The translations under genes were made by a program, and so were the position numbers. DNA of 64,000 nt from Oscillatoria sp. FACHB-1407 (lineage in GTDB: Bacteria; Cyanobacteriota; Cyanobacteriia; Elainellales; Elainellaceae): NCBI RefSeq assembly GCF_014697545.1, contig NZ_JACJSA010000007.1, positions 186,001-250,000 on the forward strand. The letters are read 5' to 3'. The notes under the pieces are model-generated. The model saw only the letters and a program-made list of their open reading frames with translations. It had not been told where the DNA came from and did not search any database. Below, piece by piece: positions 7,725-58,526 of the stretch; the stretch's first letter is position 1; each line of letters begins with the position of its first letter.

Positions 7725-7802
7725 GTCAACCTCCTGTCTCAATCCCCAAAAATTAGCTCTAGCTGCTGTCTCATATTCTACTTATAGCTGTCGCTGGGTG
7801 GA

Positions 7803-7882: not shown

Positions 7883-7930
7883 GAAATAATCCCGCTCCCT
7901 ATTGCCAACTTCTTTACGCTGATCAAAACC

Positions 7931-9004: not shown

Positions 9005-9062
9005 AGGGCGATCGCCTAATCAATCAGGCTGCTTTTCAGCAAAGGAGATCAAACTGACTCAG

Positions 9063-9254
9063 TTACAGGTTGTCAGCTGCTCCTTCGCTACCACCCTTCT
9101 CTTCCATGTCGTCCATGTCCTGAGCGTTGTTGTCACCGCCAAAGCGTCTTCTACCGCCCATTCCACGTCCGGTGCTGGGGCGTTTACGAAACTTGCGAGC
9201 GTAAGCTTGGTTGCGGAGAGCTTTTTCTTTCTTCTGGTTGCGGCGTTTAGCCAT
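9063..9254 (-). CDS. small very basic protein, function unknown
   Basis: 63 residues. It starts MAKRRNQKKEKALRNQAYAR, continues KFRKRPSTGRGMGGRRR and then turns acidic and Gly/Asp-rich (DMDDMEEKGG). ATG at 9254 has AGAGG six bases upstream, which decides the start against an upstream frame extension. The basic head and acidic tail suggest nucleic-acid or ribosome binding, but that is inference. I recall similar short proteins in cyanobacteria without an assigned function. Confidence 0.7.
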   Translation of the reverse strand: MAKRRNQKKEKALRNQAYARKFRKRPSTGRGMGGRRRFGGDNNAQDMDDMEEKGGSEGAADNL

Positions 9255-9459
9255 GCTTAACCTCTTTAAATCGATGGACTGAACGAACAAACATAATCAT
9301 TGCTGCAAACAATTAATGATTGAACAGAGAATGATTGAACAGGATTTCAAGGCTTTAAACAACCCTGCAAGAGGTATACTCTAGCACAATCCTGAGTCAT
9401 TAAGATGGGGTTTAGAAACCGGAATCTGGGGATCAATCAGGGATTGATGACTGACTGCC

Positions 9460-10761: not shown

Positions 10762-11007
10762 ATGTGAATAAACCTATACTGCCACAGGGCATGAGAGAGA
10801 TTGGGAGAACAGCAATTTGAGAGACAGGCTACAAAAATCACTGTTTTTCATTGTGCAACATCCTGGGCGATCGCCACCTACCAAGAGTGCTCTCTAACGG
10901 ATGATTTTTAGAGGCAAACCGCCTGTTTGCCCAAACTTGAGCTACAGTAGCAGAAATGGGTCTAAACACAGGTTAGCGTGTGGTTTAGTCAGACGGAGGA
11001 AACGATC

Positions 11008-11292
11008 ATGTGTATTTGTGTGAACTGTCACTACGTTGATCGCTGCACGACGTATCATGCGGTCGAAGAGCAACACCATCAGCCTCACCTGACCGATAAC
11101 CCAACATTTGAACCTATTAATCCAGTTATTAACTACAATTACACCCTTCCAAAGGTGGTCGTCACTGATGATGGGCAGATTGTCCAGGAAGGCGATTTTG
11201 GTGAAGAGTACGATGTCGTCGGCTGCGATAGCTTTAAGCAGGAGACTGGCAAATGGGCACAGTTGCGTCCCGGAGAGCTAGTGCCCACCTGA
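11008..11292 (+). CDS. ycf34: Ycf34 iron-sulfur family protein
   Basis: A 94-residue protein beginning MCICVNCHYVDRCTTYHAVE, with four cysteines in the conserved Ycf34 pattern, and ending GCDSFKxETGKWAQLRPGE. Ycf34 is encoded in plastids of red algae and in cyanobacteria; in Synechocystis it was reported to bind an Fe-S cluster and affect photosynthetic electron transport. ATG 11008 is preferred because ACGGAGGAAA lies just before it. Only three bases separate it from the kinase gene downstream, so the two are probably co-translated. Confidence 0.93.
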   Translation: MCICVNCHYVDRCTTYHAVEEQHHQPHLTDNPTFEPINPVINYNYTLPKVVVTDDGQIVQEGDFGEEYDVVGCDSFKQETGKWAQLRPGELVPT

Positions 11293-11295
11293 TGC

Positions 11296-13227: not shown

Positions 13228-13331
13228 GGGAGCGGGGAGTGGGGAATAGGGAAGAGGAACGAGAAGGATAAGGGCTAAAGGCTAAAAGCGGAAGAAAAAT
13301 CGAGGATGCAATTAATATAGCTACGGCTATA

Positions 13332-14141
13332 TCAATTCAACGTGGTGGTGGAGTAGCTAAAGTCCAGCACAGGCCAATCCGGCTCCCGATAGTAATGCAT
13401 CATGTTATCAAACTTGCGAAGCTCAGCCCGTTGAATTAACAGCGTCTGAGGTGCGTCATGCATGAGCCATTGCTGGTTTAAGTCATCAATTTGATGACCC
13501 AACGCATCGCGATCGATTTCGTTAGGCACATTGCCAAAATAGCCCAGGGTAATGTGCGCTGTGAGGTGATATTGCTGCTCAATTCCTAAACCGATTAAGG
13601 CTGAATTTTGGTAAATTGCCCGACGCAGTTTAACAATCTGCTCATAGCCATCCTCAGTTTTGGGTGTTAAGCAGACCGCTAAGGCTCTGGGCATGACGAC
13701 AAGACCCATCACTTGCCAATAGATCGGCTCGATTGATTTTTGGGGTTGACATTGCTGAAAGATCTGACCAATGCGATCGCGCAATTGCCACTGAAAATTG
13801 GGGTTCTCATCTGCATGACGATAAGCACTATCCCAAATCAGGTCAGCGATCGTCATGTGGAAACTCTCAGGGGGAAGTTGCACAAATAGCTCAGGCGAAA
13901 GCTTTTGGGCAATCTGTTGCTGAAATGCCTGCAACTGCTGATAAAACGCCTGATTGTCTGACTCATCTGCCCACGGTGGCGTAATCACCGAATATCCAGG
14001 AAACGGAGCAGGCTGAAACGTGCCATCCGGTTGTTGCTGGAATTTTGGAGATGACTGAATATGTTGTACTTGAGACTTGTAAGCCTCTGGTAGCGTCATC
14101 CGCGCCACCCGATTTACATAAACCTGGTAAATGTCGTCCAA
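13332..14141 (-). CDS. 2H phosphoesterase, DUF1868 / 2'-5' RNA ligase-like
   Basis: A 269-residue protein with two His-x-Thr motifs, FHMTIAD near residue 117 and AHITLGYF near 196, the signature of the 2H phosphoesterase superfamily (RNA ligase-like, cyclic phosphodiesterases). The N-terminal part (FPGYSVITPPWADE) matches the DUF1868 type. It likely hydrolyses or transfers 2',3'-cyclic or 2'-5' phosphodiester bonds; the substrate is unknown. It stands alone on the minus strand. Confidence 0.8.
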   Translation of the reverse strand: MDDIYQVYVNRVARMTLPEAYKSQVQHIQSSPKFQQQPDGTFQPAPFPGYSVITPPWADESDNQAFYQQLQAFQQQIAQKLSPELFVQLPPESFHMTIADLIWDSAYRHADENPNFQWQLRDRIGQIFQQCQPQKSIEPIYWQVMGLVVMPRALAVCLTPKTEDGYEQIVKLRRAIYQNSALIGLGIEQQYHLTAHITLGYFGNVPNEIDRDALGHQIDDLNQQWLMHDAPQTLLIQRAELRKFDNMMHYYREPDWPVLDFSYSTTTLN

Positions 14142-14262
14142 TCGAATACGCCTCGCCTTCTGACTTCAGGGGATCACTTGCAATACACCTTCCCTAATGT
14201 ACCTTGTCAAAAGCAAGCTTTGACAGAGTAGCCAGAAGACTTTTCTAAACAACAACCCTCTG

Positions 14263-14317
14263 GCATGAATCATTTTTAGAAATATGAATCATTCTTACTG
14301 CAAAAAATGATTCATGC
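14263..14317. repeat. inverted repeat with a third direct copy
   Basis: GCATGAATCATTTTT (14263-14277) pairs exactly with AAAAATGATTCATGC (14303-14317). A further ATGAATCATT copy (14284-14293) lies in the loop. No T-run follows on either side in the right place for an ordinary terminator. It may be a repressor-type operator, a processing hairpin, or a small mobile remnant. Confidence 0.6.
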
Positions 14318-14347
14318 AGAAATTTTAAGGGCTGAAGATGAACTTCT

Positions 14348-14731
14348 TTAATTAGCTGAAAAACTGATTAAACCAAGCTGTGATTTTGAGATCAAACTAT
14401 TGTTTTTAAATTGCAAGTTGATCGTTGATCCGTTGGAGTTATACCACACATAAATGTGTGTTTCTGTCTCTCCAGGAATTTGGACTCGACGTGTTTCATC
14501 CGCTTTCCCTAAAATGCCTTCTACTTCAGAAACAGTCATCGATTTAGTGATGCGTTCATATTTTGCCAGGGTTTCTGCTAGAGATTCAGAAGCACTACCA
14601 ATGAGGTTTGAAACAGTAGTTGATTCGGAATTCGTCGATTTTTCTGAAGGCTCTACAACAGATTGCGATACAAAAGAGCAGCTGCTTAAAGCAAGAGCAA
14701 ATAGGGACAGAGCAGATAGTTTTAGCTTCAT
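14348..14731 (-). CDS. lipoprotein with SmpA/BamE-like fold
   Basis: 127 residues. The signal peptide MKLKLSALSLFALALSSC ends in an LSSC lipobox, so Cys18 should be lipidated. A Ser/Glu-rich linker follows. The C-terminal domain has ITKSMTVSEVEGILGKADE and then VWYNSNGSTINLQFKNNSLI, resembling the SmpA/BamE or beta-lactamase-inhibitor-like two-helix, three-strand fold. The location is probably the periplasmic face of a membrane. It lies in an AT-rich stretch compared with its neighbours. Confidence 0.72.
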   Translation of the reverse strand: MKLKLSALSLFALALSSCSFVSQSVVEPSEKSTNSESTTVSNLIGSASESLAETLAKYERITKSMTVSEVEGILGKADETRRVQIPGETETHIYVWYNSNGSTINLQFKNNSLISKSQLGLISFSAN

Positions 14732-14890
14732 ATATCAGAGACAGAATGCTCTCTCTAATGTGCCCAAAAGGTCCCAGGGAATTCAATAGCCAGGATTAAA
14801 GCCTGAATGAAACTTCGAGGTTTTAAGTACAGAGGAGTTATTGGATTCAATATATTGCTTTTCTAAAGTTTCCTTGATTTTACGGATCAC

Positions 14891-15193
14891 CTAGCTCCAG
14901 TCCTCCCGTTGAGAACCACGACCCTTATAAACCTGGGCTATTTGATGAATTTGACGACTTCTTTCAAACAGTGTTTCTTCTGTGAATCCCCACTGAGTCA
15001 ATACCTTTTTCAAGTCGGATTGAATATCTCTTGCTCCAGGAAAATCTTGATATCGAATGTAGAGACGAGCCAACTCCGCGACATGAAAATCAGTGGGTTG
15101 GGCTTCAAGGAGGGTGTTTACGAGCTGGCGATCGCTGCTCCAGAGGGGGTGTTGTTGATCTTTGGAGGTTGCTTTTCCAGAATTGTCAGCCAT
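14891..15193 (-). CDS. DUF3288 family protein
   Basis: A 100-residue soluble protein. After a short head it has DQQHPLWSSDRQLVNTLL, then AELARLYIRYQDFPGARDIQ and LTQWGFTEETLFERSRQIH, the conserved blocks of DUF3288, a family I know only from cyanobacteria. ATG at 15193 is the likely start; an upstream in-frame ATG at 15202 adds three residues. Function is unknown. Confidence 0.85.
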   Translation of the reverse strand: MADNSGKATSKDQQHPLWSSDRQLVNTLLEAQPTDFHVAELARLYIRYQDFPGARDIQSDLKKVLTQWGFTEETLFERSRQIHQIAQVYKGRGSQREDWS

Positions 15194-15195
15194 AG

Positions 15196-15366
15196 GAAGC
15201 AAGGATAAAACACAAAGGATAAAGGATAAACGAGGAAGAGAAGAAAAAATAGGAAATAAGGAAAAATAATACGGAAGTCAGGCGTGAAGAAAAATAATAG
15301 CTCAATTTTTACCCTTCATCCTTTTTAATCCTTCATCGTTTATCCTTCAGCTTTCATCCTTTTACC
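15196..15366 (+). repeat. AAGGATR heptad blocks flanking a spacer
   Basis: The spacer between the GNAT and DUF3288 genes carries AAGGATA-type units on the plus strand at 15196-15235 and the complementary CCTT/ATCC units at 15300-15366. The two blocks could base-pair with each other in RNA. The right block touches the stop codon of the GNAT gene. Confidence 0.7.
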
Positions 15367-15829
15367 CCTCTCCCTGCTCCAACCGCTTGACCATCCACAA
15401 CGATTGCACCTCGTAGCCTAGCTGACGGTACAAATTGAGGGCAGGTTGGTTATTTGGAAAGACTTGCAACCCAAGCTGGCGATCGCCTCTGCTTTTAACC
15501 CAGGTTTCAGCGTGATGCATCAAGGCTTTGCCGATGCCACGACGACGATGCTCTGGAGTGACGTAGAGCAAGAAAATGTAGGACTGGCGATCGCCGCTGA
15601 TTTGATCGATCGCACTCCCCATCCAGAGGCAGCCAACGGTTTGACGGTCTACCGTTTCGACCCACCAGAGGGGCGTGTCCTTGGAAAGATACTGTTCAAC
15701 GGTGTGAGCCAGGTGAGCGACGGATTGACCAGGATGAGATTCCTGGTAGGTGCGCTGCATAAACTTCAGCAACAGGGGGCGATCGAGTCCTGAGCCTGAA
15801 CGCAGATCATAGCCGGGGAGCAGTTCCAC
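15362..15829 (-). CDS. GNAT family N-acetyltransferase
   Basis: 155 residues with the GNAT fold. The acetyl-CoA pyrophosphate loop is HRRRGIGKALMHHAE (residues ~97-111), preceded by the strand SYIFLLYVTPEH and followed by LGLQVFPNNQPALNLYRQLGYE. It starts at a GTG (15829), 18 bases after the upstream small membrane-protein gene, so it is the third gene of an operon. The acceptor substrate is unknown. Its last residues (EQGEG) and stop codon run into a heptad repeat. Confidence 0.85.
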   Translation of the reverse strand: MELLPGYDLRSGSGLDRPLLLKFMQRTYQESHPGQSVAHLAHTVEQYLSKDTPLWWVETVDRQTVGCLWMGSAIDQISGDRQSYIFLLYVTPEHRRRGIGKALMHHAETWVKSRGDRQLGLQVFPNNQPALNLYRQLGYEVQSLWMVKRLEQGEG

Positions 15830-15847
15830 TGGTGAGGATGGCAGTGA

Positions 15848-16105
15848 TTAAAACGCGGCAGTGGAGAGTGGCTCTGGAGGTAATCCTTCTACAAACAGCT
15901 CTAAGGGAACGGGTAATTTAGCGGTGCGAAGCAGTTCCCCATTTGGGGTAGTCGCTTCAACGGAGCTAACTTGATCCACTTCTTCAATCGGAGCAGGGGC
16001 AGCCATGTCAGCAGGTAAAAAGATGCGGGCACTCACCACTACTAACGCCAGTAGAAACACCAGAACGACCAGCAACGGGGCAATATATTGACGAAAAATA
16101 GCCAT
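15848..16105 (-). CDS. single-pass membrane protein, function unknown
   Basis: 85 residues: one N-terminal membrane helix (APLLVVLVFLLALVVVSARIFL) and a Pro/Ala-rich exposed tail (FLPADMAAPAPIEEVDQVSSVE and beyond). It has no recognisable enzyme motif. It lies 52 bases after the AmpG-like transporter and 18 bases before the GNAT gene on the same strand, so all three are probably one transcription unit. The tail resembles the pilus/cell-wall-facing ends of SAF-like proteins only weakly. Confidence 0.65.
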   Translation of the reverse strand: MAIFRQYIAPLLVVLVFLLALVVVSARIFLPADMAAPAPIEEVDQVSSVEATTPNGELLRTAKLPVPLELFVEGLPPEPLSTAAF

Positions 16106-16157
16106 ATAACCGAAAAATGAACAAAAGTCTTAAGAGTTGTAACGCCTTCCTTCCATC

Positions 16158-17450
16158 CTACACCTCATCGGAGGGGTCATCCCCAGGAAGTGAAGGAGAT
16201 GAGGCATTCCATGGAGCAAAGATTGGCAGCAACAATAATCCTGGTAAGGCAGCACAGAAGGTGATGAAAAAGAACCACGCCCAGCCTGTGGCTTTAGCAA
16301 TTTCACCCGCAGGCGAAGCGATGACTTCTCGACTTACCGCCACCAAACTTGACAAAAGGGCATATTGCGTTGCCGAAAAGCGAGGATTACACAAACTCAT
16401 CAAGAACCCTAAAAAAGCGGCTGTACCTAAGCCAGCACAAAAGTTTTCGATGTTGATTGCCGCCACCATCAGGGGATAGTTTTGCCCAGCCAGTGCCAGG
16501 GCAAAATAGGCGAGGTTGCTCACAGCCTGAAGTCCTCCAAACAGCCATAGAGAGCGGTTGATGCCGATTTGGCTGAGCACAGCTCCTCCTAACAGACCTC
16601 CAACAATGGTGGCAAGCAATCCCATCCCGCCCCGAATTGCCCCGATCGCCTCAATGGGAAACCCCGTCTGGATGAGAAATGGAGTCGTCATCACAACTGC
16701 CAGGTAGTCTCCCACTTTGTAGAGCAGGATAAAGATCAGAATGAGCACACCCCGCCACAGACCAGAGCGAGCAAAGAAGTCTTGAAATGGTAGCTGAACC
16801 GCGTCTCTGAGGGTTTGTGGGGCAGAAATGATGTTTCCCTGGCGATCGCGTGACTCTGGCTCAGGCGACAGAATTGAGGTGAGCAACCCCAACCCCATCA
16901 ATGCTGCCATCAACAGATACACCCCCTGCCATGACAATCGATTTGCCCAAATCAGGGCTAAGGCTCCTGTGACCAGCAGGGCAACGCGATAACCCAGCAC
17001 CCAAATGGCGACTCCTGCTCCAACCTCTCGTTCTTCTAAAACATCGGTTCGATATGCATCGATGGCGATATCTTGAGTGGCACTGAGAAAGGCAATCACG
17101 ATCGCATTCACCGCTAGCAGTTGCAATGCCTGCGTGGGTTGATAGAAAGCCATCGCTGCGATCGCCACGATCAACGCCAATTGTGTCAACAGCATCCATC
17201 CCCGGCGACGTCCTAAAAAGGGAGGTACGTAGCGATCGAGCAACGGCGACCAGAGAAACTTGACCGTCGAAGGCAAATTCGCCAGGTTAAACCAGCCAAT
17301 CGTGCCGAGATCCACCCCTGCGACGGTCATCCAGGCAGTCAGGGTTTCACGGGTGAGGTTGTAGGGCAACCCGGAGGCAAACCCCAATGACACCAGAGCC
17401 GCCATTTTTTTGCTTTGGAAAACACGCAGGAAGGATGGAATGGATTTCAC
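16158..17450 (-). CDS. AmpG-like MFS transporter
   Basis: About 430 residues with 12 or so membrane segments. The N-terminal block MAALVSLGFASGLPYNLT, FLWSPLLDRYVPPFLGRRRGW and the helix ATQDIAIDAYRTDVL are the hallmarks of AmpG muropeptide permeases, which import peptidoglycan fragments (GlcNAc-anhydroMurNAc peptides) for recycling. GTG 17450 is preferred: the frame also extends to a TTG at 17498, but that part lies in a TGGTCAA-type repeat. It heads an operon with the small membrane protein and the GNAT enzyme. Confidence 0.85.
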   Translation of the reverse strand: MKSIPSFLRVFQSKKMAALVSLGFASGLPYNLTRETLTAWMTVAGVDLGTIGWFNLANLPSTVKFLWSPLLDRYVPPFLGRRRGWMLLTQLALIVAIAAMAFYQPTQALQLLAVNAIVIAFLSATQDIAIDAYRTDVLEEREVGAGVAIWVLGYRVALLVTGALALIWANRLSWQGVYLLMAALMGLGLLTSILSPEPESRDRQGNIISAPQTLRDAVQLPFQDFFARSGLWRGVLILIFILLYKVGDYLAVVMTTPFLIQTGFPIEAIGAIRGGMGLLATIVGGLLGGAVLSQIGINRSLWLFGGLQAVSNLAYFALALAGQNYPLMVAAINIENFCAGLGTAAFLGFLMSLCNPRFSATQYALLSSLVAVSREVIASPAGEIAKATGWAWFFFITFCAALPGLLLLPIFAPWNASSPSLPGDDPSDEV

Positions 17451-39436: not shown

Positions 39437-39577
39437 AAGCCTCTAAGTTGCACATCGCGTGTATGATGTTCAATCCAGTGATCCCGTACATTCAGGAGGG
39501 ATAAATTCTAATATTTTGCGGAGAAGCCCAAAATTCTGCGGTAGAACAGAGGCAACACCGGATCTGAGTTGCTCCCA

Positions 39578-42232
39578 ATGGATACTGACACGAAGAAGGA
39601 TTTTTTTGTCAGCTACAATCGCCATGACAAAACCTGGGCAGAGTGGATTGCCTGGACTTTGGAGGAGGCAGGCTACAGCGTTGTGATTCAGGCGTGGGAT
39701 TTTCGTCCGGGCGGTAACTTTGTCCTGGATATGCAACGAGCCACATCGCAAGCAGAACGCACGATCGCCGTATTATCCCAAAACTATCTCGATTCACAGT
39801 TTGTGCAACCAGAGTGGGCAACGGCATTTGCCCAAGACCCAACTGGCAAGAAGCGATCGCTCATTCCAATTCGGGTGGGTGAGTGTGTGCTAACGGGAAT
39901 GCTATCGACGATCGTGTATGTGGATGTGGTCGGGGTTGAGGAGACAGCAGCCCAGGCTCTGGTGTTGCAAGCGGTGCAAGAGAGACGCACCAAGCCAGCG
40001 CAAAAGCCAAGCTTTCCAGGATATTCAGAGCCAACGATAGCGCGATCGAAGCCAATCTATCCACCACACATTGTTCAAAATCTGCCCTATGCCAGCCAAA
40101 CCTTTGTGGGACGCGATGCCGAACTGGAGCAGATCCATGAGCAGTTGCACCAGCAACCCACGACAGTCGTTCTAGCCATTTCAGGAATGGGTGGCACAGG
40201 CAAAACAGAATTGGCGTTGCAATATGCTCGTCAGCAATGCCGTGAGGGGGCATATCCCGGTGGGGTGTGTTGGCTACGGGCACGAGAGGATGTGGGTGCT
40301 CAGATTATTAGCTTTGTGCGATCGCACTTTGAACTAATACCACCCGAAGACCTGGAGTTGCTGGAAAAGGTGCGCTGGTGTTGGCAACGGTGGCACGAGG
40401 GAGCCGCGTTGCTAATCTTTGATGATGTGCAGCAATACGACGATATTGTCCCCTTTTTGCCGCCGCAAGACTCACGCTTTAAGGTGTTGCTAACGACCCG
40501 ATTAGACCTGGGAGCCGCTGTGCAGGAATTGCAATTGGATGTATTGTCGGAGAACGAGGCGATCGAGTTGTTGCGGGCGTTAGTGCCCCGGTCGCTCCAA
40601 GCGACCGGGGCACTGGAAAAGCCGCTTTGTGAATGGTTAGGCTATTTGCCATTGGGAGTCGAGTTAATCGGGCGATATTTAGCCCGCAAGCCGGATCTCT
40701 CCCTTGCAGACCTGTGGCAGCGGTTGCAGGATAAACGCCTAGACGCGATCGCCTTTAAAGAAGCGCAACCGGGAATGACCGCATCGTTGGGTGTGGCAGC
40801 GGCATTTGAGTTGAGTTGGCAGGCATTAGAAGAACCAGCACAGCACGTCGCTACCGTGTTGAGCTTATTTGCATTGGTGGAAATTCCCTGGACACTGGTG
40901 GAGCAATGCCTGCCAGACATGGACGAGGAGGAGTTAGAAGAGATCCGCGACGAGCAGCTTTTAGGAGCGCATCTGCTGAAGCGGGTAGACAAGGGGATGT
41001 ATCGACTCCATCAACTCTTGCGAGAGTTTTTTGCATCGAAGCGATCGCAACGAGCAGACGATCTAACCTTGCAGCAGCAGTTTTATCAGGTGGTGATCAC
41101 GGCAGCCGAGCGAGTCAAGGAAAAACCAGAGCGATCGCAAATCAAAGAATCAACCGTGGCGATCGCTCATCTGCAAGCCGCAATGGAACGTTTAGTCCAA
41201 CCAGAGCAAGCGCTGGATGTAGCCACTTGTCTCAAGTGGATAGCAGAACTTTACTACGCGCAAGGACGGTATAGAGAAGCGGAACCGCTGTTAGTGCGAT
41301 CGCTCGAACTTCGAGAACAGCGGTTGGGACAAGAACATCCCGATGTGGCTCAGAGCTTAAGCGTTTTGGGATGGTTGTATTACTCACAAGGGTATTTTGG
41401 GGAGGCAGAACCACTACATGTGCGAGCATTAAAAATTAGGCAACAGCATTTGGGCGACGACCATCCCGATGTGGCATTAAGCCTGAGTGGTTTAGCACAG
41501 TTGTACAGTTTCCAAGGACGGTATGGAGAAGCAGAACCACTACATGTGCGAGCATTGGAAATCAGGCAACAGCATTTGGGTGATAACCATCCCGATGTGG
41601 CATCAAGCTTGAACACTTTGGCACAGTTATATGAGGCACAAGGACGGTATGGAGAAGCAGAACCACTACATGTGCGATCACTGGAAATCTATCGACGGCA
41701 ATTGGGCGACCAACATCCCGATGTGGCAACGGGTCTGAACACTTTGGCAAACTTGTATCGATCTCAAGGACGGTATGAGGAGGCAGAGCCGCTTTATCTG
41801 AGATCGCGGGAGATTTATCAACTACAATTGGGCCACAGCCATCCTTATGTGGGAATTAGCTTGAGCAATCTAGCAAAGCTTTATCGCTGGCAAGGGCGCT
41901 ACAGCGAGGCGGAACCGCTTGTTCTACAATCGCTCTCTATTCTGCGAAAGCAGCTTTCCGCCGAACATCCCAGAGTAGCAGCAGTTCTGTATAATCTAGC
42001 ACGCATATACGATTTGCAAGGACGCTACAGCGAGGCAGAATCCCTTTACCTTCAAGCACTGCCAATTTTTTCGATGAAGCTGGGACACAATCATCCCTCG
42101 ACGCAGTCCGGCTCACAAATATTTCGATTGTTCTTGCAAAAGGTGATTCAAGATCGGCGCACGCATGAACTCTCGGATGACCCGATGACACAAGAGATGT
42201 TAAAACAGCTTCAAGCTACAACCGAAGATTAA
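39578..42232 (+). CDS. TIR-NB-ARC (STAND)-TPR protein, probable immune sensor
   Basis: 884 residues. TIR domain 1-140 (KKDFFVSYNRHDKTWAEWI; putative NADase Glu79 in FVQPEWATAF). STAND ATPase: FVGRDAELEQI, Walker A GMGGTGKTEL, Walker B ALLIFDDV, LLTTRLDL, LPLGVELIGRYL and a winged helix LHQLLREFFASK. Then seven 42-residue TPRs (AQLYxxQGRYxEAEPLhVRALEI-like). This is the design of bacterial NLR-like defence proteins, which sense a phage protein via repeats and trigger NAD+ depletion by TIR. ATG 39578 is preferred over TTG 39569. The repeats suggest it can change by recombination. Confidence 0.9.
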   Translation: MDTDTKKDFFVSYNRHDKTWAEWIAWTLEEAGYSVVIQAWDFRPGGNFVLDMQRATSQAERTIAVLSQNYLDSQFVQPEWATAFAQDPTGKKRSLIPIRVGECVLTGMLSTIVYVDVVGVEETAAQALVLQAVQERRTKPAQKPSFPGYSEPTIARSKPIYPPHIVQNLPYASQTFVGRDAELEQIHEQLHQQPTTVVLAISGMGGTGKTELALQYARQQCREGAYPGGVCWLRAREDVGAQIISFVRSHFELIPPEDLELLEKVRWCWQRWHEGAALLIFDDVQQYDDIVPFLPPQDSRFKVLLTTRLDLGAAVQELQLDVLSENEAIELLRALVPRSLQATGALEKPLCEWLGYLPLGVELIGRYLARKPDLSLADLWQRLQDKRLDAIAFKEAQPGMTASLGVAAAFELSWQALEEPAQHVATVLSLFALVEIPWTLVEQCLPDMDEEELEEIRDEQLLGAHLLKRVDKGMYRLHQLLREFFASKRSQRADDLTLQQQFYQVVITAAERVKEKPERSQIKESTVAIAHLQAAMERLVQPEQALDVATCLKWIAELYYAQGRYREAEPLLVRSLELREQRLGQEHPDVAQSLSVLGWLYYSQGYFGEAEPLHVRALKIRQQHLGDDHPDVALSLSGLAQLYSFQGRYGEAEPLHVRALEIRQQHLGDNHPDVASSLNTLAQLYEAQGRYGEAEPLHVRSLEIYRRQLGDQHPDVATGLNTLANLYRSQGRYEEAEPLYLRSREIYQLQLGHSHPYVGISLSNLAKLYRWQGRYSEAEPLVLQSLSILRKQLSAEHPRVAAVLYNLARIYDLQGRYSEAESLYLQALPIFSMKLGHNHPSTQSGSQIFRLFLQKVIQDRRTHELSDDPMTQEMLKQLQATTED

Positions 42233-47038: not shown

Positions 47039-47539
47039 ATGACATATACAACTTCAAATTCGGCTAGTGAAATGGTCCAGGCTTTTCGTAAGCTAGACGT
47101 TGACCAGCAGTTAGCTCTGTTCTGGTTTGTTTATAAGGAAATGGGTAAGTCAGTAACTCCGGCGGCTCCCAACGCCAGCACCGTCTCACCTGAAATTGCC
47201 CAAGGACTATTCAATCAAGTGGCTGAACTCTCACACGATGAGCAACTGCAATTGCAACGCGATCTGGCGAGCAACAAAAATACCTTCATCACTCGTGAAT
47301 ACGGCGCACTCAGCGACACCACCAAGCTGCTGTTCTGGTATTACCTGGCGCAGGGAATGGATCAAAACGTGATTGTGCCCTTTCCCTCTGACTACCAGAT
47401 GACTGAAGAGGCAAATAACTTGTTTGGTCAGATTAAAGGGTTAGATTTCGGTGAACAAATCACCTTCTTCCGCAATATCGTTGCGCCGATGGGTGTTGAT
47501 CCCAATGCCGTAGAGCACGATCCAGAGACGGGTCTGTAA
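47039..47539 (+). CDS. helical carotenoid protein (OCP N-terminal domain homolog)
   Basis: 166 residues, all-helical, matching the N-domain of the orange carotenoid protein: MVQAFRKLDVDQQLALFWFVYKEMGK, with carotenoid-contacting aromatic residues in FWFVYKEMG (Trp, Tyr), and LLFWYYLAQGMDQNVIVPFPSDY. No C-terminal CTDH domain is fused or adjacent. HCPs bind a keto-carotenoid and quench singlet oxygen or phycobilisomes, at the thylakoid stroma side. There is no Shine-Dalgarno; a terminator-like hairpin ends 10 bases before the ATG. The HCP clade cannot be assigned without a tree. Confidence 0.87.
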   Translation: MTYTTSNSASEMVQAFRKLDVDQQLALFWFVYKEMGKSVTPAAPNASTVSPEIAQGLFNQVAELSHDEQLQLQRDLASNKNTFITREYGALSDTTKLLFWYYLAQGMDQNVIVPFPSDYQMTEEANNLFGQIKGLDFGEQITFFRNIVAPMGVDPNAVEHDPETGL

Positions 47540-50710: not shown

Positions 50711-50777
50711 TCCAGGCAACAGACCTGCCTTGTGATGAATGTGTTTAGTGAATTGTTGTTTCACAGGGAAACGTCCT

Positions 50778-51083
50778 ATGGCATTCGGTACTACAGAAAG
50801 CATTGAAAAGTTGGCAGCTGAAATCGGTGAAAACGTTTACATCGATATCGCCAAGTGGCATCTCTATCTGCGTGATGCTCACCTCCATACCCTCTTAGCC
50901 GAACGCTTTCTGCCGATTCTGCAATCGGGTCAACTACAAGAAAGCAAAGTGGCTGAAGTGTTGCAAAACATCTCTGTCAAAGTGGGTGGCGGCAAGCGTG
51001 ATATCCCCCTCGCTGACCTCCTGCCGATGCAATCTCAGGTTCATTTGATGGATGTGCTGGAGGAGTATCAACGAGAGCTATAA
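50778..51083 (+). CDS. DUF3181 family protein
   Basis: 101 residues. TTESIEKLAAEIGENVYIDIA, KWHLYLRDAHLHTLLAERF, VKVGGGKRDIPLADLLP and MDVLEEYQREL match the DUF3181 family of cyanobacteria. ATG 50778 is preferred, since the earlier GTG/ATG frame is unsupported. The function is unknown; it is 67 bases after the 2TM gene. Confidence 0.87.
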   Translation: MAFGTTESIEKLAAEIGENVYIDIAKWHLYLRDAHLHTLLAERFLPILQSGQLQESKVAEVLQNISVKVGGGKRDIPLADLLPMQSQVHLMDVLEEYQREL

Positions 51084-51501: not shown

Positions 51502-53664
51502 GTGAGTCTTAGAGATCTTGCTCTGCGGAATCAGTATCGGAGCGATCGCCATAATCTGCTCCAGGATTTTTATATTCCTTGCTTGAGTCGGGCAGTAACC
51601 TACGATCGCGCTGTTGGTTTCTTTTCAAGCACCTCTTTAGCCTTGGCCGCTCAGGGATTGTCCTATTTCATCCAGTCAAACGGACGGATGAGGTTGGTTG
51701 CTTCACCTCACCTCTCTACGGAGGACATTGCAGCAATCGAGAAGGGGCTGAAACAGCGGGATGAGGCGATCGCAGAAAGTATCATCCATGAGTTGGAGCA
51801 AGAGTTTGAGCAGATTGTGGGAGACCACCTTGCTTGCCTGGCTTGGTTACTGAGCAACGGTTTCTTAGAGATTAAGTTGGCAGTCTATCGTGACCTCCAT
51901 CATCAAGGTATCTATCACGAAAAACTGGGAGTCTTCACCGATTCAGAAGCAAATCAGGTTGTTTTCTCTGGCTCTGCCAATGAGAGTGCTAGCGCATTGA
52001 GGAATAACTTTGAATGCATTGATGTATTTCGATCCTGGCGGTCTGGAGACGATGAGCGGATCGGTGAGAAGTTAAAAGATTTTCAGCGACTCTGGGATAA
52101 CCAGACTCCTAATTTGGAGGTGATGGAGTTTCCGGAGGCAGCGCGGAGGTCATTGTTGAAGCGTTGTCCGAGTGAAGCCCCAATGGAAGAAGTAGGGAGT
52201 CAAGAAGTCAAGGAGTCGAGGGAGCCAGGAGCAAAAGAATCGAACAAAAAATATTCCCTTGATCCCCTTGATTCCCTGATTCCCTTGATTCCCTCGAATC
52301 CCTCTAAAGTCCCTACCCTTCCATCCTGGCTCACGATTCGTCCTTATCAGAGGCAGGCGATCGCCAACTGGTTTGCCAATAAGGGCAGAGGCACCCTGAA
52401 AATGGCGACAGGTAGTGGCAAAACGATTACGGCTCTATCCTTAACCACAGAACTCTACAACAAGATTGGTCTTCAAGTTCTACTGGTGATTTGTCCCTAT
52501 CGGCATCTGGTGAGTCAATGGGCAAGGGAGTGCCAGAAGTTTGGACTGGAGCCAATTTTAGCATTTGAGAATGTTCGTACCTGGCAGAGTAAGCTTTCCA
52601 CTCAGCTTTATAACGTTCGCTCTGGCAGTCAGCCTTTTTTGACGATTATCACAACTAATGCAACCTTGATGAGTCAGGGCTTACAGTCGCAGTTACCCTA
52701 TCTACCAGAAAAGACCCTGATTGTCGGGGATGAGGCGCATAACCTGGGAGCGAGACGGCTAGAGGCAAGTTTGCCACGGAATGTAGGGTTACGCTTAGCC
52801 CTGTCTGCTACTCCCGAACGGTATTTTGACGATCGCGGTACACAGTCCCTCTTTGACTACTTTGGTCCCGTATTGGAACCAGAATTTACGCTCAGGGATG
52901 CGATTGAGCAAGGTGCATTAGTTCGTTACCTGTACTATCCCCTGTTCGTGGAATTGACAGAGGAGGAAGCGAACGCTTACTCGGAACTCAGTACCAAAAT
53001 TGGGCGAGCACTGGCGATCGCAGATAATGATGAGGACGATTCAGCCGTGGCAACCCTGTCAATGCAACGCGCCCGTTTGCTCAGTACGGCTACCAATAAA
53101 CTCACCGTTTTACGAGAGTTGATGAAATCTCGCCTGCAAACCAGCCATACTCTGTTCTACTGCGGAGACGGGTCTGTCGAAAACGAGGTCAGCCAAGAAA
53201 GTCAGACCCAAGTTGAAGTCGTTGCTCGCATTCTCGGCAAGGAGTTAGGCTATCGTGTCAACATCTACACCGCCGATACTTCTCTAGATGAACGGGAGGC
53301 GTTACGTCAACAATTTGAATCGGGAGAACTCCAAGGGTTGGTTGCGATTCGTTGTCTCGATGAAGGCGTCGATATTCCTAATGTAGAAACGGCTGTCATT
53401 CTGGCGAGCAGCAGCAATCCACGACAGTTTATTCAACGACGAGGACGGATTTTACGTCGCTATCCCAATAAGCAACGCGCCACCCTGTTTGACATGATCG
53501 TGTTGCCCCCTGCCCTGGATCGAAAAACGCTAACCGTTGAGCGAAATCTGTTGCGTCGAGAATTGCGACGAGTGATCGAATTTGCTGATTTGGCAGACAA
53601 CTCCGGTGAAGCCAGAGCCAAACTTTTGGGGCTTCAGCAGCAGTATGACTTGTTAGATATGTGA
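51502..53664 (+). CDS. PLD-nuclease/SF2-helicase, DNA phosphorothioation-type restriction protein
   Basis: About 720 residues. Residues 20-200 form a phospholipase D-like nuclease (YDRAVGFFSSTSLALAA; HEKLGVF with His-x-Lys near 138, and VVFSGSANESASALRNN). After a Pro/Ser linker comes a superfamily 2 helicase: PYQRQAIANWF, Walker A MATGSGKT near residue 301, DEAH in VGDEAHNLGAR near 408, LSATPERYFDDRG, then VAIRCLDEGVDIPNVETAVI and QFIQRRGRILR. This layout fits the restriction enzyme of dnd (phosphorothioation) loci. GTG 51502 follows CGGAG and overlaps a small frame. No dndC/dndB/dndE lies in the window. Confidence 0.85.
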   Translation: MSLRDLALRNQYRSDRHNLLQDFYIPCLSRAVTYDRAVGFFSSTSLALAAQGLSYFIQSNGRMRLVASPHLSTEDIAAIEKGLKQRDEAIAESIIHELEQEFEQIVGDHLACLAWLLSNGFLEIKLAVYRDLHHQGIYHEKLGVFTDSEANQVVFSGSANESASALRNNFECIDVFRSWRSGDDERIGEKLKDFQRLWDNQTPNLEVMEFPEAARRSLLKRCPSEAPMEEVGSQEVKESREPGAKESNKKYSLDPLDSLIPLIPSNPSKVPTLPSWLTIRPYQRQAIANWFANKGRGTLKMATGSGKTITALSLTTELYNKIGLQVLLVICPYRHLVSQWARECQKFGLEPILAFENVRTWQSKLSTQLYNVRSGSQPFLTIITTNATLMSQGLQSQLPYLPEKTLIVGDEAHNLGARRLEASLPRNVGLRLALSATPERYFDDRGTQSLFDYFGPVLEPEFTLRDAIEQGALVRYLYYPLFVELTEEEANAYSELSTKIGRALAIADNDEDDSAVATLSMQRARLLSTATNKLTVLRELMKSRLQTSHTLFYCGDGSVENEVSQESQTQVEVVARILGKELGYRVNIYTADTSLDEREALRQQFESGELQGLVAIRCLDEGVDIPNVETAVILASSSNPRQFIQRRGRILRRYPNKQRATLFDMIVLPPALDRKTLTVERNLLRRELRRVIEFADLADNSGEARAKLLGLQQQYDLLDM

Positions 53665-53731
53665 ATGGTTGGGGAACTTAGGGAAATAGAAACAATTAAG
53701 GACATCAAGGGAATCACGGGGTGGGAAGGAA

Positions 53732-54122
53732 ATGAGAGGAGTTGCTGCAAAGAGTTTTCAGGATTTGCTAGTTTGGCAAAAGGCGCATCAGTTTGTTTTA
53801 GGTGCTTACCGATTCAGTCATGATTTTCCAAAAACTGAAGTTTATGGACTAACTTCTCAATTTAGAAGAGCAGCCGTTTCTGTTGTCGCTAATATTGCAG
53901 AAGGTTTTAGATAAAAGGCGCGGGCAGACCGAGCAAGATTTATCAATATTGCTCAGGGTTCTCTGAAAGAATGTCGATATTACTTGATTCTGGCGAAAGA
54001 ATAGTGATAGTACAAAGTTAATTGCTCAACTAGAAGAGGTTAGCAGGTTCCTGACTGCTGACTACACAATGCAAGGATTACCAACAAAATCACCCTCATC
54101 CCCTGAATCCCCCACACCCTGA
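53732..54122 (+). pseudogene. four-helix bundle (S23-type intervening-sequence) protein, broken
   Basis: Reads VAAKSFQDLLVWQKAHQFVLGAYRFS, LTSQFRRAAVSVVANIAEGFR, then a TAA stop (53912-53914), then in the same frame ARFINIAQGSLKECRYYLILAKE, and after a shift into another frame DSTKLIAQLEEVSRFLTADYT. So it is a four-helix-bundle protein killed by one nonsense codon and one frameshift. It sits between the PLD-helicase and the DndD-like gene, without being part of the coupled set. Confidence 0.8.
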
Positions 54123-54135
54123 CGCTCTCTCTCCA

Positions 54136-54312
54136 ATGCCCAAACCCTCTACTTCCACCAATGATGTTCATAAGCCGATTTCTACTGCCTCCAGGGAGGT
54201 ACAGCAGATTATTCAACGAGTGCTAGAAATTGAGAAGGAGCGGTTGGATAAGAATGAGCGCAGCCCGGTCAATGATGAAATCTTGAAAATCATCAAGGAA
54301 GTTGTGCAATGA
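54136..54312 (+). CDS. 58-residue small protein coupled to the DndD-like gene
   Basis: A 58-codon frame: MPKPSTSTNDVHKPISTASR, then a helix EVQQIIQRVLEIEKERLDKN and SPVNDEILKIIKEVVQ. Its TGA overlaps the ATG of the next gene as ATGA (54309-54312), so the two are translationally coupled. No Shine-Dalgarno is strong. I recall unnamed small proteins beside DndD-like genes in other genomes. Its charged helical character suggests a subunit that binds the SMC ATPase. Confidence 0.72.
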   Translation: MPKPSTSTNDVHKPISTASREVQQIIQRVLEIEKERLDKNERSPVNDEILKIIKEVVQ

Positions 54313-56387
54313 AACTTCTTGCACTCAAATTTTGCAATTTTCGATCGTTTTACGGCGAACAGAGTCTCACCTTTGCCAAGTCGGATGAGCGCAACATTAC
54401 GGTGATTCATGGCAACAATGGTTCGGGGAAGACGGCTGTGCTGAATGCGTTTACCTGGGCACTCTACGAGAAATTTACAGCAGCCCTCGCGTCTCCGGAG
54501 CAATTGGTGAATCGGAGGGCACTGAGCGAAGCGAAAGTTGACAAGCCTGTTCCCTGTTGGGTTGAGGTGTCTTTTGAACATGATGGTAAGCAGTATCGAG
54601 TGAAACGAGAGTGTCGGGCTTACCGGAAGAAGGATGGCTCCGTCGAGCAGACGAAGAGCGAACTGATGATGCAATTCGTGGGGGATGATGGTCGTTGGAC
54701 TTTCCTGCCGTCTTCTCAGATGCCAGAGGATGTGATTACTCGTATCTTGCCAAGGAGTCTGCACCAGTACTTCTTCTTTGATGGAGAGCGGATTGAGAAT
54801 ATTACCCGCACCGACAATCGCTCAGAAATTGCAGAAGCCACGAAGAAATTACTTGGCGTTGAAGTGTTGGATCGAGCGATCAAGCATTTGACAACGGCTC
54901 GTAAAACGCTAGAGGAGGAGTTGGAAGGAATTGGAGATGCAGAGACACAGAGCCTGTTAGCCCAAAAGCGCAAGCTAGAACAGGAGGCTGAGCAGTTACA
55001 GACTCGCCAGCTAGAGATCGATCAGGAGTTGGAACACCAGACTACCCGGCGACAACAGCTTCGGCAAAAGCAACTGGAGTTGACGGAGGTAGAGGGGTTG
55101 CAAACGCAACTCAATACTCTGGAGGAGCAAGAGCGGGAAATTCGGGAGAAAATTCAGCAGAGCAAGAAGACCCTTAAACGGGCAATTTCGAATCGAGGTT
55201 ATAGTGTTTTTCTGCCAAAGGTCGCCGCAGAATTTCGGTCATTGATCCGGGAACGGGAGCAGCGCGGTGAATTGCCTGCGGATATTAAGCAGAAGTTTGT
55301 TCAGGATTTGCTCGATCGCCAAAAGTGCATTTGTGGAACAGAATTACATGAGGGAACGACCGCCTGCAATCTGGTCAAATCCTGGTTGGAGCGATCGGGG
55401 CTTTCAGAGGTAGAGGCAGCCACCTACCGGGTTGAAGCACGAGTCAACGAACTAGAGAACCAAATTGACGATTTTTGGCAGGAAGTGGATCGGGAGCAGG
55501 CAAGTATCAACCACAGCAAAGGGACTTTAGAGCGAATTCAAGACGACTTAGAAGACCTGCGAGATCAACTGCGCCATAGCCCCAGAGAAGATATCCGGGA
55601 ACTTCAGAAACGACTCGATGAGGTGGATACAGCGATCGACCGTCTGACCACAGAAAAAGGAGTTAACCAGGAAAAGATTGCCAACCTGGAACTGCAAGCT
55701 GGACGATTAGGCAAGCAGTTGAAGGAAAGCCGCTCCAACGAGAAGCGACAAAAGCTAGCTGTAAAGCGGATCGAGGTGGCTCAAGAGGCGATCGATCGCC
55801 TGAAACAGGTGAAGGAAAACCGGGATGAGGTCTTTCGGCAGCAGTTGGAACAACAAATTGCAGATCTGTACGGACAAATATCGTTCAAGACATACTTACC
55901 CAGATTGAGCGATCGCTATGAACTGAGCCTGGTTGAAGTAGCAGGTAGACAGGATGTACTGGTTGGTGCCTCGACTGGGGAAAATCAAATCCTTAGTCTG
56001 TCATTTATTGGCAGTGTTATTGAGCGGGTGCGCCAGTGGAGTAAGGCAGGGCTAGTCATGGGACCCGATAGCAGCACCTTTCCTGTTGTGATGGACTCAC
56101 CCTTTGGTAACTTGGATGAGCTTTACCGGAGACAAGTGGCAAGATTAATTCCACTGTTAGCGAATCAGTTGGTAGTAATGGTTTCTCAGACGCAGTGGCG
56201 AGGAGAAGTGGAGCAGGAAATGCAATCTCGGATTGGCAAGGAGTATGTGTTGACGTTTAATTCACCGAAGTCAGATTGTGAGGAAGCATCAATTAAGCGA
56301 TATGGACAGGTTTATTCTCTGGTTAGGCAAAGCCCAAATGAGTTTGAATATACAGAGATTGTGGAAGTAAAAAATGGCTTTAGCTAG
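54309..56387 (+). CDS. DndD-like SMC/Rad50-type ATPase
   Basis: 692 residues. Walker A GNNGSGKT (35-42); the DndD-typical YFFFDGERIENITR near 154-167; long coiled coils from ~185 to ~540 with a CxC hook (KCICGTEL near 340); signature LSLSFIGSVIERV and Walker B VVMDSPFGNLDELYRRQV at about 592-609. In Dnd systems DndD helps the sulfur modification of DNA; it may nick or scan DNA. Here the gene lies downstream of a restriction-like PLD-helicase and overlaps the next gene by 14 bases. Alternatives: a generic AAA_23/RecF-like defence ATPase. Confidence 0.88.
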   Translation: MKLLALKFCNFRSFYGEQSLTFAKSDERNITVIHGNNGSGKTAVLNAFTWALYEKFTAALASPEQLVNRRALSEAKVDKPVPCWVEVSFEHDGKQYRVKRECRAYRKKDGSVEQTKSELMMQFVGDDGRWTFLPSSQMPEDVITRILPRSLHQYFFFDGERIENITRTDNRSEIAEATKKLLGVEVLDRAIKHLTTARKTLEEELEGIGDAETQSLLAQKRKLEQEAEQLQTRQLEIDQELEHQTTRRQQLRQKQLELTEVEGLQTQLNTLEEQEREIREKIQQSKKTLKRAISNRGYSVFLPKVAAEFRSLIREREQRGELPADIKQKFVQDLLDRQKCICGTELHEGTTACNLVKSWLERSGLSEVEAATYRVEARVNELENQIDDFWQEVDREQASINHSKGTLERIQDDLEDLRDQLRHSPREDIRELQKRLDEVDTAIDRLTTEKGVNQEKIANLELQAGRLGKQLKESRSNEKRQKLAVKRIEVAQEAIDRLKQVKENRDEVFRQQLEQQIADLYGQISFKTYLPRLSDRYELSLVEVAGRQDVLVGASTGENQILSLSFIGSVIERVRQWSKAGLVMGPDSSTFPVVMDSPFGNLDELYRRQVARLIPLLANQLVVMVSQTQWRGEVEQEMQSRIGKEYVLTFNSPKSDCEEASIKRYGQVYSLVRQSPNEFEYTEIVEVKNGFS

Positions 56388-56832
56388 GGTTCAAATTTCA
56401 GAAGATAAAGCAGAATTGGTCAAAGCTCTGAGGGATGCAGAAGGCGGGACTGGACCTTTTCAAACATATGCTGACGTTTTAGCATTTGCAGGAATGCTAG
56501 GAGTTAGCAGAGCTAAAAGAGTGCCGTTAGGAAAATTCTCAAGAAAAGATCCTGATGCAGTTCCACAAGATCAATTTAGAAGTAATTTGGCAGTCATTAG
56601 CTTAGTTGCAGCAGTTTCAACTGAGGAACTGAGAATTTTACTCCCGAATGAAGAATGTGATGCAATGCGGATTCAAATCTTTCAGGAATATGTAAACGGA
56701 GGATTGGAAATCTTACAAGCCGAGTTACAAGGAATCGTAGATTATTCAGAGCAGATTTTATTACTACTCAATACAGAAAGAAACAAAGGCAAAACAGATA
56801 TAGAAGAGTTTGATTTATCCCGATTTTTGTAA
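56374..56832 (+). CDS. Dnd-associated protein 4 (DndE-like accessory)
   Basis: 152 residues, soluble, helical. ARVQISEDKAELVKALRDAEG, FQTYADVLAFAGMLGVSRAKR, then VPQDQFRSNLAVISLVAAVST and IFQEYVNGGLEILQ match the pattern of dnd system-associated protein 4. The start overlaps the DndD-like 3' end by 14 bases. Function in these systems is unknown; it probably forms a complex with the DndD-like ATPase. The 3' end abuts the convergent ABC1-kinase gene. Confidence 0.75.
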   Translation: MALARVQISEDKAELVKALRDAEGGTGPFQTYADVLAFAGMLGVSRAKRVPLGKFSRKDPDAVPQDQFRSNLAVISLVAAVSTEELRILLPNEECDAMRIQIFQEYVNGGLEILQAELQGIVDYSEQILLLLNTERNKGKTDIEEFDLSRFL

Positions 56833-56854: not shown

Positions 56855-56880
56855 GCGATAAAGGCGATCGCCCCTATCGC
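56855..56880. repeat. HIP1-centred palindrome between convergent genes
   Basis: GCGATA...TATCGC arms (56855-56860 and 56875-56880) surround GGCGATCGCC, itself a palindrome, with only a 2x2 mismatch. It overlaps the stop codon of the minus-strand ABC1 kinase gene and could serve as a hairpin for both genes. Confidence 0.6.
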
Positions 56881-58526
56881 AACCGTCCCGATCGCAAGAT
56901 ACTGACAATCAACCACAATCCCATCAGACTTGCTGCGGCAAATAGCGCATCACTCAACCACGACACCTGGCTCACCGCCGAATTCGACGAGATGATCGCG
57001 GCTCCCATAATCAGAGAACCGACCACTACGCTAAACGACAGGCGATTCGCAGAGGAATCCACCGTACGACGCAGCGAATCGAGTTCCTTAATGTTAAAGT
57101 TCCAATGCAACGTTTCTGACGTGACGCGATCGAGCAATAGCTCAATCTGTCGTGGCGATTGCAACGAAAGGCTTTTGAGATCCAGTGCCGTTCTCAAAAA
57201 AGTAGACAGTGGCGATTGCCCCACCAGTTGCCGTTGAAACAACTCCGTCATCAACGGACGCAACTGATCAGGAATATTGAATTCGGGGTCAAGAGCACGG
57301 GCAATGCCTTCGAGGTTCGCGATCGCCTTGGCACACAGCCCCAGGTTGCCGGGAATTCGCACTTTGTTGTTACGAGCTACCTGCAACACCTCATACACCA
57401 GCTTGCTAAAGTTTACCTCTGAGATCGTCATGCTGTAATACTGCCTGAGCAGGCGATCGAAGTCGTTTTCCAGGCGCACAAAGCTGATTCGGTTATCGGA
57501 GGGAGCCAGTTCCAGCGTCAGTTGAGCACAGCGACGCGCATCCAGACTGACGATCGCCAGAATAATCTCCAGCAAGATCTCCTGCGTACGCGGGTCAAGT
57601 CGTCCAATCATGCCAAAGTCGAGCAGAGCCACCTGTCCCGTTTTGAGATAGAACAAGTTGCCGGGATGCGGGTCAGCATGAAACACGCCATCCAGACAGA
57701 TCTGTTGAAAGAAGGCTCGCAATAGCATGTTGGCAATTTCTTTGCGCTCAGCAGCGACATCGCCATTGTGATCCGCACTTTGAAACGTAGCAGAGAGCAG
57801 CGGTTCTCCATCCAACCACTCCATCACCAACAGCTTTTCAGTGGTCAATTCCCAGGCGATCGCCGGAATCACTAATTTCTCGGTATCGAACCAACGGCTC
57901 GTCGCTAAGTTCTCTTTAAGTTGCTTGGTGTGTTGTGCCTCACGGGTAAAGTCCAACTCCGATCGCAATGCCTGAGTAAATTCTTCTGCCAATGCCGTGA
58001 CATCGTAATACTGCCCAAAGTCCGTTTGAGCGACCAGGCTTGCTACCAGGCGAATCAGGGCAATATCCTGTTCTACCACCTGTTCAATCCCGGGACGCTG
58101 CACCTTCAACGCGACATCTCGACCGTCTTTCAGGGTGGCGCGATGGGTTTGGGCGATCGAGCCTGCTGCCACAGGCTCAAACTGCACCGACGTAAAGGTT
58201 TCCTCTAGCGGTTGAGGCAATTGCTGCCGCAACACGATCTCGACCTCATCCCAATTAACGGGAGGCACATCGGCTTGCAGGGTGCCCAACGCCAAAATAT
58301 AGTCGGGAGGCAACAGGTCTGGGCGAGTGCTCAAGAGTTGCCCCAATTTCACGTAAACCGGACCCAACTCCACCAAAATGTTTCGCAACACGGCAGGCGG
58401 CGGCAAGCGCGGCTCATCGGCTTTTAAGCCCGACAACAACCGCCGCATATAGTCCCACCCATTGCGAAGCAGGATCTCAAGGATTTCCCCTTGACGAGAA
58501 CTGGTTTGAACAAGGCGACTAAACAT
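56874..58526 (-). CDS. ABC1/AarF/UbiB family kinase-like protein
   Basis: 550 residues. The family motif YVKLGQLLSTRPDLLP (KxGQ) near residue 54-69 is followed by AAGSIAQTHRATLKDGRDVALKVQRPG, VMEWLDGEP, FHADPHPGNLFYLKTGQVALLDFGMIGRLD, then a C-terminal membrane anchor of two helices (LSFSVVVGSLIMGAAIISSN and SDALFAAASLMGLWLIVSIL). In plastids and cyanobacteria such proteins control plastoquinone and tocopherol metabolism. ATG 58526 begins the frame. Confidence 0.92.
   Translation of the reverse strand: MFSRLVQTSSRQGEILEILLRNGWDYMRRLLSGLKADEPRLPPPAVLRNILVELGPVYVKLGQLLSTRPDLLPPDYILALGTLQADVPPVNWDEVEIVLRQQLPQPLEETFTSVQFEPVAAGSIAQTHRATLKDGRDVALKVQRPGIEQVVEQDIALIRLVASLVAQTDFGQYYDVTALAEEFTQALRSELDFTREAQHTKQLKENLATSRWFDTEKLVIPAIAWELTTEKLLVMEWLDGEPLLSATFQSADHNGDVAAERKEIANMLLRAFFQQICLDGVFHADPHPGNLFYLKTGQVALLDFGMIGRLDPRTQEILLEIILAIVSLDARRCAQLTLELAPSDNRISFVRLENDFDRLLRQYYSMTISEVNFSKLVYEVLQVARNNKVRIPGNLGLCAKAIANLEGIARALDPEFNIPDQLRPLMTELFQRQLVGQSPLSTFLRTALDLKSLSLQSPRQIELLLDRVTSETLHWNFNIKELDSLRRTVDSSANRLSFSVVVGSLIMGAAIISSNSAVSQVSWLSDALFAAASLMGLWLIVSILRSGRLR

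Follow-up and report, generated by a model that had tools for sequence, protein, structure and literature searches.

Gene content of the locus

The window, a stretch of 64,000 nucleotides, covers positions 186001-250000 of contig C7 of Oscillatoria sp. FACHB-1407 (genome G000 of our set), an 8.13-Mb draft in 66 contigs with completeness 100 and contamination 1.71. Four genes, all reading in one direction and ordered A-B-C-D, occupy positions 51502-56832 of the plus strand. Open reading frames and profile matches showed that all four are present and intact between a DUF3181 gene and an ABC1-kinase gene, as the first-pass annotation of this DNA had described. The features of the locus, in window coordinates, are:

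50739-51083: DUF3181 gene, left neighbour of pbeABCD (PF11378)
51502-53664, plus strand: pbeA, PLD/HKD nuclease domain fused to an SF2 (ResIII-type) helicase, 720 aa (TIGR04095, PADLOC PbeA)
53732-53914, plus strand: 23S rRNA intervening-sequence (IVP) protein gene, present as a remnant between pbeA and pbeB (PF05635)
54136-54312, plus strand: pbeB, small protein, 58 aa, 4-nt overlap with the pbeC start (homologue alignment)
54309-56387, plus strand: pbeC, 692-aa ABC ATPase of the CxC clade, with a coiled coil and a Cys-x-Cys hook (PADLOC PbeC)
56374-56832, plus strand: pbeD, TIGR04062 "phosphorothioation-associated protein 4" with a DndE-like predicted fold, 152 aa (TIGR04062, AlphaFold2 model)
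56874-58526, minus strand: ABC1-kinase gene, convergent with pbeD (PF03109)

The start of pbeD overlaps the end of pbeC by 14 nt. The GTG taken as the start of pbeA (51502) lines up in register with a relative's ATG, and a longer alternative, TTG, lies at 51484. The IVP remnant aligns over 60 aa with positions 1-50 of the 106 in PF05635 (E 1.6e-18); pbeA-pbeB gaps of similar size were found in other loci (median 297, 65 loci), and the remnant probably stands outside the pbe system. No methyltransferase family was found among the 10 genes scanned flanking pbeABCD. The neighbourhoods of ABC1-kinase genes were also compared for an empty insertion site, and DUF3181 was beside the kinase in none of the 29 loci of relatives (flanks of about 1.5 kb).

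Identity of the four proteins

PbeA matched TIGR04095 with 646.8 bits (cut-off 600) and the PADLOC PbeA profile at E 9e-252. PF04851 and PF00271 were also over cut-off, while PF13091, at 25.5 bits, was slightly below its cut-off of 27. An alignment of four sequences showed conservation of HxK (H139, K141), GSANES, Walker A (G304-T308) and DExH (D410-H413). PbeB had no library profile above cut-off; it aligned with 13 homologues found at the equivalent position in other loci, at 43-82% identity and with 11 invariant columns.

The ATPase had been annotated at first as DndD-like. An ATPase is indeed encoded, with Walker A, STGxNQ, MDSPFG and C340-I-C342 invariant in seven sequences, but the label had to be corrected to PbeC: the protein scored 968 bits (E 5e-292) with PADLOC PbeC and only 151.7 bits with the DndD profile TIGR03185, under the cut-off of 245.85. 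The possibility of a true DndD was rejected on these grounds.

The assignment of the last gene to a Dnd-associated protein 4 was borne out by a TIGR04062 score of 146.7 bits (cut-off 74.25). The AlphaFold2 model of PbeD has a pLDDT of 75, and its 15 best Foldseek matches were all DndE entries, with probabilities of 0.89-1.00 at E-values of only 0.05-0.5 (best match, probability 1.00 at E 0.05). VIA-align gave Z scores of 9.6, 9.4 and 8.7 to three DndE entries, followed by an F-plasmid relaxosome chain at 6.6. The predicted fold of PbeD is thus closest to DndE, in keeping with the double ribbon-helix-helix protein expected at this place in a PbeABCD cassette. Sequence similarity between the two families was not found by hhalign of the PbeD family against DndE alignments (probability 0.3), and a PDB sequence search with PbeD gave a best E of only 0.4. 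The model agrees with Rakesh et al. (2024; PMC10853773), where, in the part of the article available to us, PbeC is identified as the CxC ABC ATPase and PbeD as a cognate of DndE. It is nearly certain that the four genes form a complete PbeABCD cassette, that is, a CxC ABC-ATPase/DndE-like system, and not a broken Dnd modification operon. A literature search on TIGR04096 found no paper.

Search for writer genes in the same genome

The first-pass annotation had noted neither DndC nor DndE in the window, and the profile searches of the genome agreed: no DndC, DndD or DndE was placed there, besides PbeC under the DndD cut-off. It had also suggested that modification genes might lie elsewhere, and this found no support in the draft genome. 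The DndC profile TIGR03183 matched only a divergent 399-aa protein on contig C47, with 137 bits against a cut-off of 290.4. The DndD profile TIGR03185 matched PbeC (about 151 bits) and, partially, a 956-aa frame (31.5 bits), both under the cut-off of 245.85. The DndE profile PF08870 had no match at E<=1. The PAPS-reductase domain gave two matches in the genome, a 249-aa frame on C4 and the 399-aa DndC-like protein on C47. An ordinary split Dnd system was therefore rejected, as the draft genome showed no DndE and no DndC or DndD over cut-off. The DndC-like protein of C47 was also rejected as an ordinary DndC, since four relatives carry a DndC besides the DndC-like protein.

The island on contig C47

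Contig C47 (locus L006) is 17,725 bases long and carries the following:

210-4327: TnsA- and TnsB-like genes, Tn7-like (PF08722, PF08721, PF09299)
7454-10106: second PbeA-like gene, then a 141-aa truncated ATPase fragment (PADLOC PbeA, E 1e-263)
12227-16518: genes for a DndC-like protein (about 400 aa; 399 aa here), a 248-aa protein and a dnd_rel_methyl methyltransferase

An SBD-type protein and an SBD-HNH-type protein (NF045808, under its cut-off) are also encoded. The Tn7-like genes suggest that such an element once carried a Dnd accessory island. The PbeA-like protein is 30% identical to PbeA of the window; the same PbeA-like/ATPase-fragment pair occurs at L129, L148 and L174, followed by a distant PbeC-like ATPase, and may belong to another PLD-helicase/ATPase system.

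Comparison of C47 with relatives revealed a short interval at which similarity is interrupted. Positions 10022-11774 and 12002-12162 match contig C93 of G390 through SBD and SBD-HNH, ending immediately ahead of a gene resembling the C-terminus of DndC. Similarity to G390 C93 and to G409 stops at about 12173 and restarts at 12227, at the 3' end of the DndC-like gene, from where C47 matches the DndC-like/248-aa/methyltransferase block of G390, G394 and G407 at 81-92%. In G409 the two equivalent points are about 7.8 kb apart, and DndC (with one internal stop codon), DndD and DndE lie between them. The DndC-DndD-DndE block of the relative is thus absent from C47 within about 50 bp, and searches of C47 with DndD, DndE and related queries gave only chance-level matches (E 0.28-0.99). 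From the alignments, the gap appears to be a deletion of the DndCDE block.

The DndC-like protein and the methyltransferase are encoded near DndC and DndD in G390, G394, G407 and G409, and the 248-aa gene was seen in the first three. DndE was recognized by profile in G390, G170 and G422; tblastn detected it in G394 and G409, and in G407 it was assigned from its position alone. The DndC-like gene with dnd_rel_methyl, sometimes with the 248-aa gene, was also found at L049, L050, L053 and L094-L099, frequently next to Dnd clusters. In G000, G011 and G060 the pair of DndC-like and methyltransferase genes was retained, with no DndD found.

Small proteins resembling the C-terminus of DndC were observed standing alone at L049 (9971-10354), L100 (9452-9775) and L105 (2824-3222); in G170 and G422 the neighbouring DndD-DndE cluster has no DndC. 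The one at L049 also matches Sp-DndD PF20306, under its cut-off.

Distribution of Pbe and Dnd genes in Cyanobacteriota

Match lists for PbeD, DndC and DndD in a sample of 386 Cyanobacteriota genomes were compared by eye. The proteins were found over cut-off in 94, 93 and 94 genomes, respectively. Among the 94 genomes with PbeD, 89 had DndC and 91 had DndD over cut-off, while in the 292 genomes without PbeD the numbers were 4 and 3. The genomes with PbeD lacking an over-cut-off DndC were G000, G011, G070, G159 and G170, and those lacking DndD were G000, G011 and G159. Since 89 of the 94 have DndC, the Oscillatoria genome is an exception.

By adjacency, 28 of the 80 named PbeC loci had DndC or DndD within the fetched flank. 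Of the remaining 52 loci, 48 were searched genome-wide, and DndC and/or DndD were found elsewhere in 43 of these, in one case only as a 90-aa piece. Neither was found in the other five (L107, L109, L138, L172, L182) at E<=1e-40, a threshold at which the control L111 matched and which is too strict to show the divergent DndC-like family, as applies to L107 and L109. These counts suggest that most cyanobacterial Pbe loci that are solitary by neighbourhood are not solitary genome-wide. The 43 of 48 with writer genes elsewhere call for caution with counts based on neighbourhood.

Relatives of the cassette

In the PbeC tree the window falls in a clade of five rows, together with G422, L107, L108 and L109. 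The closest of these by PbeC sequence (93% identity), G422, has SBD-HNH, DndD and DndE beside Pbe and no DndC match at E<=1e-20. Four of the five clade rows lacked DndC, against 4 of the 76 other rows (at least 5 counting L153, which showed DndD alone). The Fisher p of 0.0002 for this comparison is descriptive only, because the test takes no account of relatedness and the clade was picked out once the tree had been seen. A shuffle test on the tree, in which the label "Dnd" stood for DndC and/or DndD, gave six changes for the six rows with "no Dnd"; 500 of 500 shuffles were equally low, so that no clustering was indicated. Five rows of uncertain status were excluded from the change count, and G397 was labelled Dnd on a contig-edge piece of DndD and a DndC-like protein only.

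Two members of the clade, L107 (Aphanocapsa sp. GSE-SYN-MK-11-07L) and L109 (Leptolyngbya sp. Prado105), have apparently intact Pbe open frames without DndC or DndD at E<=1e-40; both are metagenome assemblies for which completeness is not given, and PbeA of L109 is cut by a contig end. Between the window and L107, dN/dS was 0.080 for PbeA, 0.147 for PbeB, 0.045 for PbeC and 0.059 for PbeD, within the range of pairs with Dnd; in L109 pairs dS was near or past saturation. A convergent ABC1-kinase gene directly follows PbeD in L109, as in the window, and the orphan arrangement may therefore be old. Since two genomes of the clade keep an apparently intact Pbe, a function without PT (phosphorothioate) is possible. 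Other relatives without over-cut-off DndC and DndD show decay: Pbe is broken in G011 and G410, only PbeD is left in G425, and only PbeC remnants in G060.

Interpretation of the locus

The writer was not found and its block appears to have been deleted from C47, and the cassette is therefore regarded as orphaned: PbeABCD is probably a known antiviral effector left behind after loss of its DndCDE writer. Drawing on published work, we propose that a dimer of the PbeC ATPase and the putatively DNA-binding, DndE-like PbeD would scan DNA, and that the nuclease-helicase PbeA, gated by the small PbeB, would block replication of invading DNA or cut it. Most Cyanobacteria with the cassette also encode DndC-DndD-DndE, whose PT marks are required by the cassette in the only system with a published test. 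The writer seems absent from the Oscillatoria genome as far as searches of the draft show, and the comparison with relatives suggests that a deletion in the Dnd accessory island on C47 removed the DndCDE block. The cassette, although intact, would then probably be idle as a PT-dependent defence unless the writer were regained or another mark took the place of PT. The co-occurrence in 89 of 94 genomes, the C47 gap and the decay of Pbe in Dnd-less relatives speak for the orphan reading, and also point to secondary loss instead of a system modification-free by original design. The orphan reading is further favoured by the 43 of 48 genomes with DndC and/or DndD away from Pbe and by the haloarchaeal cassette, which had no effect on protection or host when PT was missing. 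Counting against it are the intact state of all four genes, the apparently intact Pbe of L107 and L109, the low dN/dS (0.045-0.147), the ABC1-kinase neighbour shared with L109 and the 66-contig state of the draft.

Several of these observations would also fit a cassette that works without PT in this small clade, with PbeCD recognising invading DNA through a different mark, through DNA structure or through a trigger that acts on PbeB, and with DndCDE dispensable. Open Pbe frames persist in the window, L107 and L109 in the absence of DndC and DndD, DndC is missing from 4 of 5 clade rows as against 4 of 76 others (at least 5 with L153), dN/dS is low, and L109 shares the chromosomal neighbour; other marks are raised as a possibility in the available parts of PMC10853773 and PMC6459918. 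However, L108 in the same clade has DndC and DndD elsewhere in its genome and G422 retains DndD-DndE beside Pbe, related Dnd-less genomes have a decayed Pbe, the 500 of 500 shuffles give no sign that "no Dnd" rows cluster, and no methyltransferase family occurs among the 10 flanking genes scanned. We consider such a mechanism rather unlikely, and we are likewise doubtful that the cassettes of G000, L107 and L109 are a free-standing PT-independent defence under selection, with a neighbour gene common to G000 and L109.

It is quite improbable that the DndC-like protein, the 248-aa protein and dnd_rel_methyl of C47 lay a licensing mark for the cassette without DndD and DndE. The trio is intact and 92-98% identical to the proteins of G390, and DndC-like and dnd_rel_methyl genes persist where no DndD was found, in G011 and (DndC-like shortened) in G060. 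Yet these genes lie near DndC, DndD and DndE in G390, G394, G407 (a gene in the place of DndE) and G409, and because of this position in four relatives the DndC-like protein and the methyltransferase look like accessories. Moreover, no DndC-like match at E<=1e-20 was obtained in G422, the closest relative by Pbe, and G407 has the trio with no PbeD match. That writer genes are present and were missed, through assembly gaps or because their families have diverged beyond the reach of the profiles, is very improbable. The 66 contigs, the end of C47 at 17,725 bases and the coverage of the searches (DndC, DndD and DndE) leave some room for it, but completeness is 100 with contamination 1.71, C47 is continuous across the point where G409 has its writer genes, and the divergent DndC-like protein and PbeC were both detected, so that the sensitivity of the search was fair.

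Comparison with published systems

The nearest characterized counterpart is PbeABCD of Haloterrigena jeotgali A29 (Xiong et al. 2019; PMC6459918). Compared by description, as given in the available part of that article, it has the same four-gene order, with a PLD+ResIII+helicase protein, an AAA_23 ATPase and a 152-aa protein, and a small protein of 66 aa against 58 aa in the window. There dndCDEA lie alongside and PT is required for protection; without PT the haloarchaeal cassette was neither protective nor toxic to the host, and cleavage of viral DNA was not observed. Searches of the Oscillatoria draft, in contrast, turned up no DndD, no DndE and no DndC over cut-off. According to the same part of the article, dndCD were absent within 10 kb of 320 of 553 pbeAC. 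Such solitary loci resemble the one described here in having Pbe without adjacent dnd genes, but that criterion was a distance of 10 kb, whereas the absence in G000 is genome-wide as judged from the draft.

The accessible text of Rakesh et al. (PMC10853773) describes CxC ABC-ATPase/DndE-clade-2 systems that are independent of DndD systems in numerous taxa. They share with the window the CxC hook ATPase, the HKD-SF2 protein, the small protein and the DndE-fold partner; some of their neighbourhoods contain a methylase, unlike the 10 flanking genes scanned in the window. Cleavage by PbeA is favoured by those authors, while the available part of PMC12707154 calls the nature of the restriction event still obscure. 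Canonical DndABCDE and the cassette share a DndE-like fold and have ATPases that are distant relatives, but G000 misses the DndC and DndD cut-offs and has no DndE match, PbeD being of another family. The first-pass annotation had offered a modification-free variant as one option. This holds as a description of G000, within the draft, but does not hold as a new kind of Dnd system, the cassette being the published PbeABCD.

Solitary Pbe as such is already published, as the available parts of PMC6459918 and PMC10853773 show. For Cyanobacteria, PMC8569181 reports, in the part available, enrichment of dnd in Nostocales, and the term Pbe is absent from its main text; a literature search judged by titles and the beginnings of abstracts found no paper on a PT-independent Pbe in this phylum. 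Whether a solitary PbeABCD is idle or paired with another mark is a question posed in print. The Oscillatoria locus is a cleaner case than those judged by neighbourhood, because the writer was not found genome-wide and an apparent deletion site is visible. In orphan cassettes of this kind the dependence on PT is directly testable, and they provide a test case for function without the sulfur mark.

Two further genes of the window were observed upstream of the cassette. An 887-aa TIR-NB-ARC-TPR protein (TIR_2, NB-ARC and TPR_12 over cut-off), possibly an NLR-like defence or signalling protein, is encoded at 39569-42232 on the plus strand, 9 kb upstream of pbe. Positions 47039-47539 encode a stand-alone protein matching the N-terminal domain of the orange carotenoid protein (PF09150).
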